IMG/VR virus record: IMGVR_UViG_3300009788_000220
Coordinates: 1-33,971 of that record
From: a virus
DNA: 33,971 nucleotides
Reading direction: 5' to 3' (one strand)
A model generated the notes under the pieces. That model saw nothing but the letters and a program-made list of their open reading frames with translations. It ran no database searches and was not told the DNA's origin. Shown in pieces: positions 3,512-28,477 of the stretch (the stretch's first letter is position 1; each line of letters starts with the position of its first letter). A program made the translations under genes and the position numbers.

Positions 3512-3706
3512 TCAGTCATCTTCCTCAGATAGTTCCCACTTGCGGGAATCGCTAAGAAGTACAGAAAGGCGGTCAAACATCATGTCGAGACAGTCCGAAC
3601 ACAAATTGAACGTCTGGATGTACTGACAACCTGCACACTTGGAATTTTCGTAGACACTCAAGTCTACAATGTGCAAATCTGTTTGTTTGCCGCATCGATG
3701 ACACAT
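3512..3706 (-). CDS. Small C4 zinc-finger protein
   Basis: A 64-aa protein with CHRC at residues 2-5, CAGC at about 24-27 and CSDC at about 36-39, so at least one zinc-binding ribbon. It starts two nt after the stop of the gene at 3709-4002 and ends with an acidic LSEEDD tail. It is the last gene before the branched hairpin at 3343-3424. Function unknown. Confidence 0.5.
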   Translation of the reverse strand: MCHRCGKQTDLHIVDLSVYENSKCAGCQYIQTFNLCSDCLDMMFDRLSVLLSDSRKWELSEEDD

Positions 3707-3708
3707 TT

Positions 3709-4002
3709 TTATTCGGTTTGCCTTTCGGAATTTTGTTCCTCCATTAGCTTCAGTACTTCTTGAGTGGTGCGTTCAGTTAGTTTGGTTTTTGTCATTTTCA
3801 CGATGCTACCAATTTCTGGGTGCAAGGCTTCCCACGCCCTGATTTTAGATACTGCCAGAACAAAGACTTCGTTGTGGTGGTTGTCGTCCCAATCGCCACT
3901 GTCTTCAAAAACGAACAATTCGCGTCCGTCGTCACACTCTCCACGTCGCAGCCAGTCGGCGAACGAGCCTACTACTTCGGCCGGCGGTTTCTTGGTTGTC
4001 AT
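3709..4002 (-). CDS. Hypothetical acidic protein
   Basis: A 97-aa protein, MTTKKPPAEVVGSFADWLRRG..., rich in D/E with a central block FVFEDSGDWDDNHHNEVFVLAVSKIR and a helical C-terminus. No recognised domain. It sits 12 nt after the methyltransferase gene in the same leftward series. Confidence 0.5.
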   Translation of the reverse strand: MTTKKPPAEVVGSFADWLRRGECDDGRELFVFEDSGDWDDNHHNEVFVLAVSKIRAWEALHPEIGSIVKMTKTKLTERTTQEVLKLMEEQNSERQTE

Positions 4003-12319: not shown

Positions 12320-12348
12320 AATATAACAAGAGTGTTATAACCTGTCAA
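12320..12348 (-). promoter_or_regulatory. Leftward sigma70-type promoter with operator
   Basis: On the minus strand TTGACA (12343-12348) and TATATT (12320-12325) are separated by exactly 17 nt. Within the spacer and the -10 is a perfect inverted repeat, TATAACA-N4-TGTTATA (12322-12339). A near copy of the same palindrome lies in front of the XRE gene, so this promoter is probably repressed by that protein. The -35 overlaps the XRE stop codon. Confidence 0.7.
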
Positions 12349-12596
12349 GCGGGTTTTTTCTTTTTTTTCTTGCGTGGACGAAACTGCTCAACGGGCACAG
12401 AGAGTACTTCTGCGAGATTGAAAAGTTGAGTTGCGTCAGGGCAATGGTGCCCATTTTCCATCCGATTGATCGTAGCAAACGCTACTCCAATTTTGTCGGC
12501 AAGCTCTGTTTGAGTCATGCCGAGATTGAGGCGTAATACTCTCATGGTGTCACCAAAGCACGCGATTAAATCTTCTCTTCGGATTACAGTTGACAT
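12345..12596 (-). CDS. XRE-family helix-turn-helix repressor
   Basis: An 83-aa protein with a single HTH_3 domain: LGMTQTELADKIGVAFATINRMENGHHCPD (about residues 25-54), in which TQTELADKIG and FATINRMENG form the two helices of the DNA-binding turn. The C-terminus is a lysine cluster (RKKKKKKPA). It lacks a cI-type peptidase or dimerisation domain. Its promoter places the transcription start at or next to ATG 12596, so the message is probably leaderless, as for lambda cI. Palindromes ATAACA-N4-TGTTAT at both of its flanking promoters are its likely operators. Confidence 0.85.
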   Translation of the reverse strand: MSTVIRREDLIACFGDTMRVLRLNLGMTQTELADKIGVAFATINRMENGHHCPDATQLFNLAEVLSVPVEQFRPRKKKKKKPA

Positions 12597-12618
12597 ATTA
12601 TTAGTATAACAGTATTGT
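12590..12618 (+). promoter_or_regulatory. Rightward promoter of the guide-RNA island
   Basis: TTGACA at 12590-12595 and TATTGT at 12613-12618 are separated by 17 nt. This is the only strong plus-strand promoter I see ahead of the island. Its -10 lies inside the palindrome at 12606-12621, so the XRE protein would be expected to repress it. The -35 overlaps the first codons of the divergent XRE gene. Confidence 0.65.
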
Positions 12619-12631
12619 TATTGCGTGTCAA
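12603..12631 (-). promoter_or_regulatory. Promoter of the XRE repressor
   Basis: On the minus strand TTGACA (12626-12631) and TATACT (12603-12608) are 17 nt apart, a consensus-like sigma70 promoter. The -10 ends 6 nt before the ATG at 12596, which predicts a leaderless mRNA. It overlaps the rightward promoter and shares its operator. Confidence 0.75.
12606..12621. promoter_or_regulatory. Shared operator between divergent promoters
   Basis: A perfect inverted repeat, ATAACA-GTAT-TGTTAT, is placed between the -35 and -10 of the repressor promoter and over the -10 of the rightward promoter. The same half-sites with a different 4-nt centre occur at 12322-12339. Binding by the XRE protein would tie expression of the guide island to the repressor circuit. 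Confidence 0.7.
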
Positions 12632-12646
12632 ACTAAGTGAGTCACC

Positions 12647-12717
12647 GGGACGTCCAGACAACAGGTCGATCGACGCCTTGTAACCGAAAGGAACCTTGGC
12701 CATGTCATGGGCGTCCC
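12647..12717 (+). ncRNA. Guide hairpin unit 1 (leader unit)
   Basis: The inner stem is GGTC (12664-12667) with GGCC (12698-12701). Inside are GA, spacer A TCGACGCCT, core TGTAACCGA (12679-12687), spacer B AAGGAACCT and T, exactly the layout of the main array. The stem extends outward through GACA/TGTC and CCA/TGG to GGGACG (12647-12652) with CGTCCC (12712-12717). It lies in the leader between the rightward promoter and the 185-aa gene and carries the TGT core variant. Confidence 0.8.
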
Positions 12718-12758
12718 AACTTTAAGTTCAACAAAACTCTATTCACGGAGGATAACAA

Positions 12759-13316
12759 ATGAAATTTCCCGAAGAGATGATCAAAATCGTGAAGGACGCC
12801 AACGCGAATAACCCGTCGAAGCCCGAAGATGCCACAGCTGCGGCACTGCTGGGGATCACTCGCATGTCGTCCTATGACGATTTGGTTGTAATGCTGGTTG
12901 AGCAAGCTGTCAAAAATCTAATATTTGACGAAAGGCACTTAATCAACGTCAGAATCAAGTATCAAGCGGGTGCGTATAATACCAAAACCAAGACTGTGGT
13001 AGGCGACTCATCCGCTGTGATGCGTGCAGAAATATCCGCCTATCTTTACAACGTTGCCGGAACGTCGCTGGGCGAGGTGCTGGGCAAGGACCTCTTGGAC
13101 ATCGCGGACATCGAGGATAACAGAGCCGAGGGTCACGTTTTTAATTCCCGGCTGTTGCGTCGTCTGTCGGACGTCGTTCCGGATGACAAGAAAGTAAAGA
13201 ACGCGATAACCGACAAGAAGCTGAAGGCTCTGTTTTCCGAGTTGCAGGCAGTGCCGGGACGGAAACAGGCAGCCGCCAGCGATCCAAACGTAGATAAGGT
13301 ATTGGCGGGTGCGTAA
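12759..13316 (+). CDS. Unknown protein of the guide-RNA island
   Basis: A 185-aa protein with a GGAGG ribosome binding site 7 nt upstream of ATG 12759. It begins MKFPEEMIKIVKDANANNP and is mostly helical, with a central IKYQAGAYNTKTKTVVGDSS beta-like turn and a basic C-terminus (DDKKVKNAITDKKLKALFSELQ...GRKQAAAS). I recognise no family. It lies between guide unit 1 and the 12-unit array on the same strand, so it is almost certainly co-transcribed with them. RNA binding, guide processing or an unrelated cargo function are all possible. It contains no guide unit. Confidence 0.75.
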   Translation: MKFPEEMIKIVKDANANNPSKPEDATAAALLGITRMSSYDDLVVMLVEQAVKNLIFDERHLINVRIKYQAGAYNTKTKTVVGDSSAVMRAEISAYLYNVAGTSLGEVLGKDLLDIADIEDNRAEGHVFNSRLLRRLSDVVPDDKKVKNAITDKKLKALFSELQAVPGRKQAAASDPNVDKVLAGA

Positions 13317-13328
13317 TTGAGACAGGTG

Positions 13329-13972
13329 GCGGATGGACGATTCGAGGTGTGAAACCGAAAGTGGCGCTGTCCAGCCGCTCATCGCAGCCGGGCGAGAAAG
13401 CCTGTGAAATCGAAAGGTCCGTTGCCCGGCTGTTTGAACAACGAAGCAGTTAGACGAGGGTGTGCGTGAAACCGATTCATAACCTGTCCATCTGCTTCAG
13501 CCGGGCGAGTCCTGTATTGAAACCGATTCAAGCTGTGTCTATCTGCTTCAACCGGGCGATATGATCGATGCAACCGAAAGGGAGAATGCCCGGCTGTTTG
13601 AACAACGAAGCAGTTAGACGATCTCCCGTGTGAAACCGAAAAGAAACCTGTCTAGCTGCTTCAGCCGGGCGATGTCGTGTTTGAAACCGATTGAGCCAAT
13701 GCCCGGCTTTTAGAACAACAGGCGAGGGAAACCATGAAACCGAGGGGCGATTTGCCTGTTTTATTACTGAGTTATCGGGCGAGTGCCTCGATGAAACCGA
13801 GAGACGTTGTGCCCGATTTTGTGACTGGCGACATCCGCTTTGAAACCGACTGAGGCTGTGCCAGTCTTTTACGAACGAAGGATCGAAAGATATTTTGTAA
13901 CCGACGAGGTTGATGATCCTTCTTAACCCGTGGGCGAAATTCAATCTGAAACCGAGACCCCATGTGCCTACG
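13329..13972 (+). repeat. Array of 12 dual-spacer guide hairpins (units 2-13), TIGR-like
   Basis: Each unit reads arm, GA, 9 nt (A), 9-nt core, 9 nt (B), T, arm. Cores start at 13350, 13405, 13467, 13518, 13569, 13631, 13682, 13735, 13792, 13841, 13896 and 13947 (pitch 49-62 nt). A/B pairs: 2 TTCGAGGTG/AAGTGGCGC; 3 GAAAGCCTG/AAGGTCCGT; 4 GGGTGTGCG/TTCATAACC; 5 GTCCTGTAT/TTCAAGCTG; 6 TATGATCGA/AAGGGAGAA; 7 TCTCCCGTG/AAAGAAACC; 8 TGTCGTGTT/TTGAGCCAA; 9 GGGAAACCA/GGGGCGATT; 10 GTGCCTCGA/GAGACGTTG; 11 CATCCGCTT/CTGAGGCTG; 12 AAGATATTT/CGAGGTTGA; 13 AATTCAATC/GACCCCATG. The core is TGAAACCGA except in 3 (TGAAATCGA), 6 (TGCAACCGA) and 12 (TGTAACCGA). Arms of 4-13 nt pair within each unit except unit 5. 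A and B do not pair with each other. Paired 9-nt spacers match what I recall of TIGR arrays; the long unit-specific stems differ from simple tandem repeats. Confidence 0.92.
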
Positions 13973-13988
13973 CTTTTAGGAGAAACCG

Positions 13989-15068
13989 ATGACCAAAACC
14001 GAGATTGCTGAGACCTGTACCGGACTGCAAGCACTGCAGCGACAGCGCGCGTGGTACATCAAGTCGCGTAACATGATGGGAAACCGCCTACAAGCGACCG
14101 TGGCGGGGATGCAAGGCTACAATAGCGGGCTGAAAGAGGCCGAGCGTAAGAAGCTGTTTCTTGAAGCCGGTAAGCACATCAAGAAAGTCGGCAGAGGTGA
14201 GGCGGAACAGAACCCACTGATACTGACTGGCTTGATAGCAATCAAAGCCTTCGAAGATGAAAAGAAATCTACCGAGAAAGAAATGCTCAAGCTGGTAAAG
14301 CAACTGCCTGTCGCGTCATGGGTCGAGAAGCCGGAACAACGCGGATTCGGTCTGTTGTTCCTTGCAATCGTCGTTGGCGAAACGGGTGACTTATCAAACT
14401 ATTCCAACCCCGGCAAACTCTGGCGTCGGCTTGGCTGTGCTCCCTTTACCAAAGGCGGCGAGACGCTGATGGGTGCAACTTGGCGGGGACGCGGTAACGG
14501 AAAACGCGGTGAGAAACTGCACGCTTCGGATTGGGAAGCGTTCGGCTATTCGCCACGGCGGCGGTCGATTGCGTTTCTGATTGGTGAGAATATTGTTAAG
14601 CAAAATTGGATTGTGGCGGACGGCGAGGACGAGCGTGAAACCGAGGATTATTCTGCCGTTCCGCTGCAATCCGATTGTATTGATGAGTCCGGCGACAGAG
14701 GCTTTGAAACCGATGCCCCCGGTGCCGACTCATCTGACGAACTCGATACGCCCGGCGAGCTGGGCGGTGAAACCGAGAAACGTATTGCCGGGCCGTATCG
14801 AGAACGTTACGATGAAGCAAAAAAACGAGCCGCCAAGATACACCCTGAATGGATCCGCTGCGACAAGTGCGACGGGACCGGCAAGCTCGAAGCTAAGAAG
14901 TGTGGCAATTGCAAAGGCACGGGTGAACTTTTAATGCACTGCCATCGGCACGGCATGCTGCTAGCGACGAAGCGTCTGTTAAAGAAGCTGTGGCAGGAGT
15001 GGAATCAGTCGTTCGGCGAGGGTCTGTGTGAAACCGAAGAGGCAATTGCCGAACTTGTGGAAGTTTGA
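13989..15068 (+). CDS. Tas-like (Nop5/IS110 C-terminal-like) protein of the guide system
   Basis: A 359-aa protein, ATG 13989, with AGGAG 6 nt upstream. Residues 1-105 are helical and coiled-coil-like. Residues 118-150 (RGFGLLFLAIVVGETGDLSNYSNPGKLWRRLG) resemble the helix-hairpin-helix of the IS110 Tnp_20 domain, and RRRSIAFLIGENIVKQN follows. After a linker (about 207-268) come YDEAKKRAAKIHPEW and HCHRHGMLLATKRLLKKLWQEW (317-338), as at the end of IS110-type proteins. A zinc ribbon with two CxxCxGxG motifs (Cys 291, 294, 305, 308) is inserted before it. There is no N-terminal DEDD domain and no clear HNH or RuvC motif, so it would match a nuclease-free Tas type that binds guide RNA. The linker and C-terminus are encoded by four guide units. 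A degenerate transposase is the alternative. Confidence 0.75.
   Translation: MTKTEIAETCTGLQALQRQRAWYIKSRNMMGNRLQATVAGMQGYNSGLKEAERKKLFLEAGKHIKKVGRGEAEQNPLILTGLIAIKAFEDEKKSTEKEMLKLVKQLPVASWVEKPEQRGFGLLFLAIVVGETGDLSNYSNPGKLWRRLGCAPFTKGGETLMGATWRGRGNGKRGEKLHASDWEAFGYSPRRRSIAFLIGENIVKQNWIVADGEDERETEDYSAVPLQSDCIDESGDRGFETDAPGADSSDELDTPGELGGETEKRIAGPYRERYDEAKKRAAKIHPEWIRCDKCDGTGKLEAKKCGNCKGTGELLMHCHRHGMLLATKRLLKKLWQEWNQSFGEGLCETEEAIAELVEV
14616..15054 (+). repeat. Four guide hairpins inside the Tas-like coding sequence (units 14-17)
   Basis: Units with the same exact spacing lie in the reading frame. Cores start at 14636, 14705, 14768 and 15029, all TGAAACCGA. A/B pairs: 14 GGACGAGCG/GGATTATTC; 15 CAGAGGCTT/TGCCCCCGG; 16 GCTGGGCGG/GAAACGTAT; 17 GGGTCTGTG/AGAGGCAAT. 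Arms: 14616-14624 with 14655-14664; 14682-14693 with 14724-14734; 14742-14756 with 14787-14802; 15011-15017 with 15048-15054. All four are read in the same frame, giving the peptide pattern G-[D/E]-x3-E-T-[D/E]-x3-A (GEDERETEDYSA, GDRGFETDAPGA, GELGGETEKRIA, GEGLCETEEAIA). The core is read as xxT-GAA-ACC-GAx, which avoids its out-of-frame TGA. Confidence 0.9.
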
Positions 15069-15291
15069 CCCATCGAAGGTCGAGTTGTAACCGAGGGTGA
15101 TGTTGATGGGTCTTAATACGAATCGGCGAAGTTGAACATGAAACCGAAGGGGAATTTGCCGATTGAAACGGAACCAGCAGGGCGGCGACAGAGGCGATGA
15201 AACCGAGGCTATTATTGCCGATCTTGCTGGTTCCGCAGAATGCAACGGCTCGGCGATGTCAAAAATGAAACCGAGCACGTCTTTGCCGAGC
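15068..15291 (+). repeat. Four guide hairpins after the Tas-like gene (units 18-21)
   Basis: Cores start at 15086 (TGTAACCGA), 15139, 15198 and 15266 (TGAAACCGA). A/B pairs: 18 AGGTCGAGT/GGGTGATGT; 19 AGTTGAACA/AGGGGAATT; 20 CAGAGGCGA/GGCTATTAT; 21 TGTCAAAAA/GCACGTCTT. Unit 18 begins at the stop codon of the Tas-like gene (5' arm 15068-15074, 3' arm 15105-15111). Unit 20 has the longest arms (15170-15186 with 15217-15234). Unit 21 ends GCCGAGC followed by TTTTT at 15292, so it may also end the transcript. Confidence 0.9.
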
Positions 15292-28380: not shown

Positions 28381-28477
28381 CAACCAGCACACGCAAGGTC
28401 GGTTTCAGCCTCTTCATCGCCGGTTGTTTCAAAAGTTGGGCAACCGGGACCTCGTCTTCATGTAAGCCGTCGCCCAA
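28381..28477 (-). ncRNA. Two solitary guide hairpins on the minus strand (units 22 and 23)
   Basis: Unit 23 is transcribed first. Its arms TTGGGC/GCCCAA are at 28472-28477 and 28436-28441, spacer A is CGGCTTACA, the core TGAAGACGA (28452-28460) is a variant, and spacer B is GGTCCCGGT. Unit 22 has arms CAACCGGC/GCTGGTTG (28419-28426 and 28381-28388), spacer A TGAAGAGGC, core TGAAACCGA (28399-28407) and spacer B CCTTGCGTG. Both keep the exact GA-9-9-9-T layout of the plus-strand island 13 kb away. They lie in the 293-nt non-coding gap before the capsid gene. Confidence 0.88.

Follow-up and report, generated by a model that had tools for sequence, protein, structure and literature searches.

The viral DNA analysed here, IMG/VR record IMGVR_UViG_3300009788_000220 (33,971 bases, the whole of which we call the window), very probably carries a stem-loop TIGR-TasA system, a member of the kind published in 2025 by Faure et al. 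(PMC12045711, to whose main text our statements on that work refer). In the systems described there, TasA goes with stem-loop TIGR arrays whose arms are palindromic and variable, whose spacers come in pairs of 8-12 nt and which have box C/D motifs. The window holds 23 units in total, with 9+9 spacers and variable palindromic arms that pair with their own partner, and a gene for a 359-aa Nop-domain protein, here named TasA. Three points appear to be new and worth following: guide units inside the tasA reading frame, a companion gene upstream of tasA, and a turnover restricted to the spacers.

On the plus strand, 21 units were found between 12668 and 15284, all of the form GA-N9-TGAAACCGA-N9-T and with a spacing of exactly 9+9+9 throughout, the core being TGAAACCGA in 16 units and a one-letter variant in the others (TGTAACCGA in 3, TGCAACCGA in 1 and TGAAATCGA in 1). 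Every A spacer (21/21) and every B spacer (21/21) is distinct, and all 42 nine-base segments differ. Within a unit, A and B form 4.0 of 9 pairs compared with 3.65 between units, which is the background level. The original prediction, made from the letters alone, had described 21 plus-strand hairpins with no spacing exception and with two 9-nt segments that differ in every copy and are not complementary to each other, and all of this was borne out. It had overlooked that 4 of the 21 units lie within the 359-aa frame, and also two minus-strand units and a 185-aa gene at 12759-13316. The arms match their own partner, with 7.0 of the 8 core-adjacent positions paired, compared with 5.0 for arms taken from different units. 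A control scan with fixed boxes and a required stem of six or more pairs, run on shuffled sequence of the window and of the other loci with the window's core, gave 0 hits, with the exception of one stray in locus L058 (0.2 per shuffle). Three units (13507, 13558 and 13885) showed weak or different folding on their own; the arms are mismatched in some units, above all in 13507, the left one there being of one unit type and the right one of another, and this unit looks like a recombinant of the two. A scan of the window against Rfam at the gathering threshold matched no family, and a CRISPR-Cas array was rejected because the arms vary between units and no cas gene was present among the proteins scanned.

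The gene tasA (13989..15068, plus strand) encodes a Nop domain with a coiled coil. Its product matched the NCBIfam model TIGR_Tas (NF052498; E 6e-17, 62 bits) ahead of the IS110 model (7e-9), and its PHROG label is 'transposase' (3.5e-12). When an AlphaFold2 model of TasA (mean predicted local distance difference test score, pLDDT, of 60) was compared by Foldseek, the top four matches were TasH-tigRNA structures (probability 0.96-1.00), followed by ISCro4 and IS621. More specifically, VIA-align gave a Z of 8.1 to TasR (9mty; 183 residues, 4.2 A, from TasR residue 112) and of 6-7.5 to IS621, Nop5 and Prp31 (6.2-6.5 for Nop5). The IS110/Nop-like nature claimed for the protein was therefore confirmed by profiles and fold matches alike, and the structure comparison proposed with that claim returned TasH/TasR, IS621 and Nop5. 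The Nop coiled coil starts near residue 3 of the model and the Pfam scan found no nuclease family in the 359-aa protein; as the TasR alignment begins at residue 112, the nuclease part of TasR is without a counterpart in the window protein. Judged by its predicted structure, the protein is thus a TasA, with no HNH or RuvC domain fused N-terminally. Residues 289-316 (14853..14936, plus strand) form a CXXCXGXG zinc-like motif with weak Pfam matches to DnaJ_CXXCXGXG and Anti-TRAP; the motif also occurs in loci L008, L022, L024 and L025 and is absent from L016, L020 and L027, as an optional insert would be.

Searching viral and genome contigs with the single protein confirmed no TasA relatives. The DNA pattern GGCGA-N9-TGAAACCGA-N9-TGCC was found in 14 stretches of viral contigs, several with whole arrays, and a TasA relative was present in every such contig with enough sequence. 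A search with the TasA alignment yielded 33 viral and 12 genomic loci, while a search of plasmids for relatives yielded none. IMG/VR contigs contain relatives that have these arrays together with this protein, and phage structural genes are present in the window itself, in agreement with the predicted TIGR-like dual-guide array in a phage. A tree of 42 TasA proteins showed two large clades. In the window's clade the units carry CGA/TG at both the stem side and the loop side; those of the sister clade, some of whose loci are in alphaproteobacterial genomes, read CCA-N9-TG(N4)CCA-N9-TG, with 9/9/9 geometry in 63/73 units. The box motif therefore varies jointly at stem and loop side, being CGA in one clade and CCA in the other, which agrees with the report of Faure et al. 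that TIGR boxes are matched between edge and loop and vary in concert (PMC12045711). One contig of the window's clade (L009/L013/L022) carries the window's core in about 31 units that repeat every 45 nt and have an almost constant edge. This comes close to the dual-repeat layout, so that it and the stem-loop layout occur in one clade. Five further arrays (L036, L039, L040, L096 with 23 units, and L099) alternate two hairpin types with different spacers, ggtcgcca..tgcgacc and either cccggcca..tgccggg or cgcggcca..tgccgcg. Possible isolated units with diverged cores, decayed or due to chance, lie at L033 1987-3281, 0.4-2 kb upstream of the companion gene.

Among the systems described by Faure et al. 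(PMC12045711), the TIGR-TasA locus of a Peromyscus gut contig (Fig. 7) is alike in its nuclease-less Nop-domain protein, its variable palindromic arms and its sub-arrays around tas; its array has 13 hairpins compared with 23 in the window, where box C is CGA. The arms specific to each unit, which the original prediction had taken to be unlike a simple array, are thus real, but they do not place the system outside TIGR, since stem-loop TIGR was already known (PMC12045711). The dual-repeat TIGR systems (TasA, TasR, TasH) have in common with the window the 9-nt spacers A and B, the constant loop repeat, the agreement of edge and loop boxes and a single Nop-domain effector, but the window lacks their constant edge repeat. 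The tasParB operons (fig. S14 of PMC12045711) also combine tasA with a second conserved gene, with arrays between and around; by contrast, in the window the companion, which may still be related, goes with stem-loop arrays and gave no recognisable match to ParB in Pfam, PHROGs or NCBIfam. IS110/IS1111 bridge-RNA transposases (IS621, ISCro4) have a Nop-like RNA-binding fold and paired guide segments, whereas the window protein has no catalytic domain and is accompanied by an array of many guides. Finally, box C/D small nucleolar ribonucleoproteins (snoRNPs; Nop5, Nop56/58) resemble the system in fold, C/D-like boxes and paired guides, but no fibrillarin or L7Ae was recognised and the boxes in the window are without the kink-turn consensus.

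The 359-aa reading frame contains four units, at 14625, 14694, 14757 and 15018, which are all read in the same frame. Three of them (14625..14654, 14694..14723 and 14757..14786, plus strand; fold z -4.2, -2.7 and -5.4, respectively) are encoded by an in-frame insertion of 61 residues (207-267; 14607..14789, plus strand) in a loop, KQN^GPYR, which measures merely 1-5 residues in 12 relatives, and the fourth (15018..15047, plus strand) is at the 3' end of the gene. Besides the window, one or two units occupy the KQN-GPYR loop in L018, L019, L020 and the fragment L008, and units are encoded in an N-terminal extension or C-terminal tail of TasA in L019, L020, L022, L025 and L027. In the sister clade, units were found in the open tas frame of L002, L036, L037, L043, L044, L045, L048, L049, L052-L054 and L058-L060, with a provisional in-gene placement for those near the start of tas, where the start codon is only presumed. 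Units within the tas frame thus recur in both clades. They are readable in just two frames, those that avoid the TGA of the core, always GAA-ACC-GA in the central loop, and the presence of units in this loop requires at least 3 changes on the TasA tree. Guide units inside the tas frame are apparently new: Faure et al. place arrays upstream and downstream of tas genes, and the main text makes no mention of units inside the frame (PMC12045711).

The gene directly upstream of tasA (12759..13316, plus strand; 185 aa) was analysed in those loci with at least 1.2 kb of upstream sequence. Eight upstream proteins were combined into a profile, which hit a gene directly before tasA in all complete close loci; even before iteration, it also did so in four loci of the sister clade (E 4e-8 to 3e-4). 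After iteration the companion was present in 36/41 loci, 33 of them by script and three (L037, L052, L054) added because their open frames overlap tas beyond the script's limit; the iterated E-values are inflated by training, and position and strand provide independent support. Matches in L035, L040 and L051 are weak. The 185-aa protein had no family match in Pfam, PHROG or NCBIfam. Its model (pLDDT 75, predicted template modelling score 0.41) gave nothing credible by Foldseek against the PDB, which is no evidence of a new fold. We count the 185-aa gene as part of the TIGR-TasA system. Such an uncharacterised upstream companion is apparently new; Faure et al. regard TIGR as generally a single-protein system, and their main text does not mention a conserved companion gene (PMC12045711).

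The spacers change much faster than arms, boxes and linkers. In the window, a block of three units is duplicated (13385..13535 and 13549..13699, plus strand), and the two copies differ at 36/54 spacer positions and at only 5/97 other positions. The same behavior was observed in a duplicated two-unit block of L020 (27/36 spacer and 3/81 other differences) and in three block copies of L039 (18-25/36 and 2-5/76); the L021 block (23/36 and 14/76) and the first block of L040 are less clean, with unequal linker lengths. Across loci of the window's clade, spacer identity was 0.27 in ten pairs of units with alike arms and 0.274 in 471 pairs with unlike arms, and among same-arm units of the sister clade only 3/762 spacer comparisons agreed at 8-9 positions. 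L039 and L097, which come from different samples, are identical in arms, cores and about 150 intergenic bases; two successive units differ, the first in A and B and the second in B alone, which amounts to 16/36 spacer bases, all other bases up to the downstream gene being unchanged (a hand count from the alignment). Short-read assembly at repeated arms is a caveat that affects these single cases more than all of them together. The contigs L005/L006 and L041/L042 show no or almost no differences where they overlap and are hence uninformative on turnover, and a search found no strain-level copies of the window's own array. In the L020 duplication (3683-3960), the first copy begins within the 3' end of tasA, a scrap of which was copied along. 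A turnover confined to spacers is apparently new for TIGR, the main text of PMC12045711 making no mention of it.

Either the spacers mutate or are replaced faster than their surroundings or selection for new ones is very strong, and half-recombination also takes part. It is conceivable, if somewhat doubtful, that the last process accounts for the whole pattern, the halves of units being swapped by recombination at the common core and arms with no mutation or acquisition of spacers. Such an exchange would fit the chimeric unit 13507 with its two arm types, the L039/L097 unit that keeps A and changes B, and two units of L099 that have the same B and different A. However, same-arm spacers are no more alike than unrelated ones, the 3/762 agreements at 8 or 9 positions indicate that reshuffling an existing pool is insufficient, and some pairs (L036 2461/3621, L039 1128/1497) are partly diverged. 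On our reading, these partly diverged pairs show mixed substitutions, and adenine-directed mutagenesis as in diversity-generating retroelements was accordingly set aside as a poor fit.

The locus starts with a divergent C1-type repressor, followed by a promoter-like site, one unit, the 185-aa gene, 12 units, the 359-aa gene with four units inside, and four more units. The repressor, an 83-aa Cro/C1-type helix-turn-helix protein (12345..12596, minus strand; Pfam HTH_3, 3e-15), is a possible regulator of the operon. A consensus scan predicted a sigma-70-like promoter reading into the operon (12590..12618, plus strand) and, overlapping it, a divergent promoter of the repressor (12631-12603, minus strand); the two sites match the consensus at 10 and 11 of 12 positions, the total count of such sites being near the shuffled expectation. 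The overlap of divergent promoter-like sites (12570-12640) between the repressor and the companion-tasA operon suggests a control linked to lysogeny. Unit 1 (12668..12697, plus strand) stands alone as a hairpin within the companion gene's leader. The 12 units between companion and tasA (13339..13965, plus strand) start at 13339, 13394, 13456, 13507, 13558, 13620, 13671, 13724, 13781, 13830, 13885 and 13936, and the four downstream of tasA (15075..15284, plus strand) at 15075, 15128, 15187 and 15255. The two minus-strand units (28389-28471), with cores TGAAGACGA (28471 to 28442) and TGAAACCGA (28418 to 28389), are distant from tasA in the late operon, between the genes for the head protease and the major head protein and on their coding strand. 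Terminase, portal and helicase genes are also present in the window.

Targets were searched with the rule A + 0-2 nt + the reverse complement of B, which we derived from the cut geometry and gap tolerance in PMC12045711. The window contained no own-genome targets above shuffled A/B pairing, A+B and B+A arrangements included, and for 147 units of 14 phage genomes in four geometries own-genome matches were likewise not above shuffled pairings. Nor did 0.89 Mb of related phage and bacterial DNA contain paired 9+9 matches in excess of shuffled pairings, so the original prediction found no support in this test. The lack of paired matches speaks against self-regulation and has no bearing on foreign targets. 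Exact spacer 9-mers occurred 19 times in the window compared with 11.3 +/- 3.3 for shuffled letters, which do not keep codon bias, and single 9-mers weigh little. The position-specific base preferences of A and B are alike (r 0.75, reached in 0/2000 column permutations; 0.81 without the window), as expected if both halves meet equivalent sites, a hint that they may indeed do so.

Genes, array geometry, box motifs and fold were tested here, and from these, with the remaining steps taken from Faure et al., we propose the following mechanism. The operon (leader unit, companion gene, array, tasA, array) would be transcribed as a long RNA, and every hairpin would be excised as one guide, in line with the RNA sequencing of Faure et al., in which each stem-loop hairpin is processed as one unit (PMC12045711). 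A TasA dimer would hold the guide, with the stem-side box C (CGA) and box D (TG) on one protomer and the loop-side boxes on the other. Spacers A and B would each pair with a different strand of a duplex target that follows the rule above, and TasA, having no nuclease, would bind and bend the DNA without cutting it. The most likely effect would be a block of transcription or replication of competing mobile elements or host defence genes. To such guided, non-cutting interference with foreign or host DNA we give about even chances; phage-encoded, RNA-guided DNA recognition as such, which the original prediction had proposed, appears well supported by family membership. The faster turnover of spacers than of arms, boxes and linkers is in keeping with foreign targets that change, not with a self target that stays the same. 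Units inside tasA would compete with translation, and their excision would destroy the tasA message and so act as a built-in limit on TasA protein. Rather speculatively, the companion may be involved in a dedicated, spacer-restricted diversification while the in-tasA guides make guide production and effector translation mutually exclusive as a built-in feedback, a combination that we think unlikely.

Several points weigh against the reading as a TIGR-TasA system that binds DNA. The 62 bits for TIGR_Tas are below the curated cut-off of 100 and yield no equivalog call, NF052498 models the endonuclease, and the IS110 match is likewise under its own cut-off. The TasA model is modest, the Foldseek E-values are weak (0.03-0.1), and a Z of about 8 can also be reached by unrelated helical proteins; we therefore base the identification on sequence profile, structure ranking and array pointing the same way, and not on the Z value. 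Guide processing and DNA binding by the window TasA are carried over from Faure et al. (PMC12045711), the mechanism leaves the companion gene and the zinc motif unaccounted for, and no guide has a target in own genomes or in the 0.89 Mb of related DNA.

Other explanations were weighed on the same evidence. That TasA binds its own phage genome, for gene regulation or as a help to integration, seems improbable to us: the operon adjoins a C1-type repressor, two units lie in the late operon and Faure et al. raise DNA bending as a possible help in integration (PMC12045711), but own matches of the 147 units were no more frequent than with shuffled pairings in all four geometries, and spacers differ between near-identical phages whose neighbourhood is constant. 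The Nop fold and C/D-like boxes common to snoRNPs, together with the conserved uncharacterised companion, would suit guides that pair with host or phage RNA while TasA recruits a partner, perhaps the companion. We nevertheless consider RNA-targeting of this kind very unlikely, given that the scan of genes neighbouring tasA recognised nothing like fibrillarin or L7Ae, that A+B and B+A arrangements were without enrichment, and that the family as published, TasA with stem-loop arrays included, is grouped among the DNA-targeting Tas (PMC12045711). A degenerate IS110 element with a multiplied bridge RNA, still recombining DNA, was already disfavoured and is hardly credible, in spite of the IS110 profile and the PHROG label: IS621 and ISCro4 align only from about residue 121, leaving no DEDD domain before the Nop part, the Pfam scan of the window protein gave no DEDD match, the TIGR_Tas profile scores higher, and IS110 has one bridge RNA and not a multi-unit array with a conserved partner gene.

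In conclusion, the stem-loop TIGR-TasA system of the window bears on questions that Faure et al. left open, namely the origin, persistence and expansion of TIGR arrays and the source of their spacers (PMC12045711). The duplicated blocks and the near-identical phages make the question of spacer origin testable, and a partner gene without known fold accompanies tasA in two clades of a system generally held to be single-protein (PMC12045711). An isolated and sequenced phage with a Sinorhizobium host, Rhizobium phage RHph_X2_25 (L002 4423-6760), has a TasA relative and a companion gene, annotated as hypothetical proteins, as well as CCA/CG stem-loop units, of which two fall within the tas frame, and allows a study independent of metagenomes. 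Guides that at the same time encode part of the effector they serve would represent a novel type of gene overlap, and, if true, either companion-assisted spacer diversification or feedback through the units in tasA would be new for TIGR.

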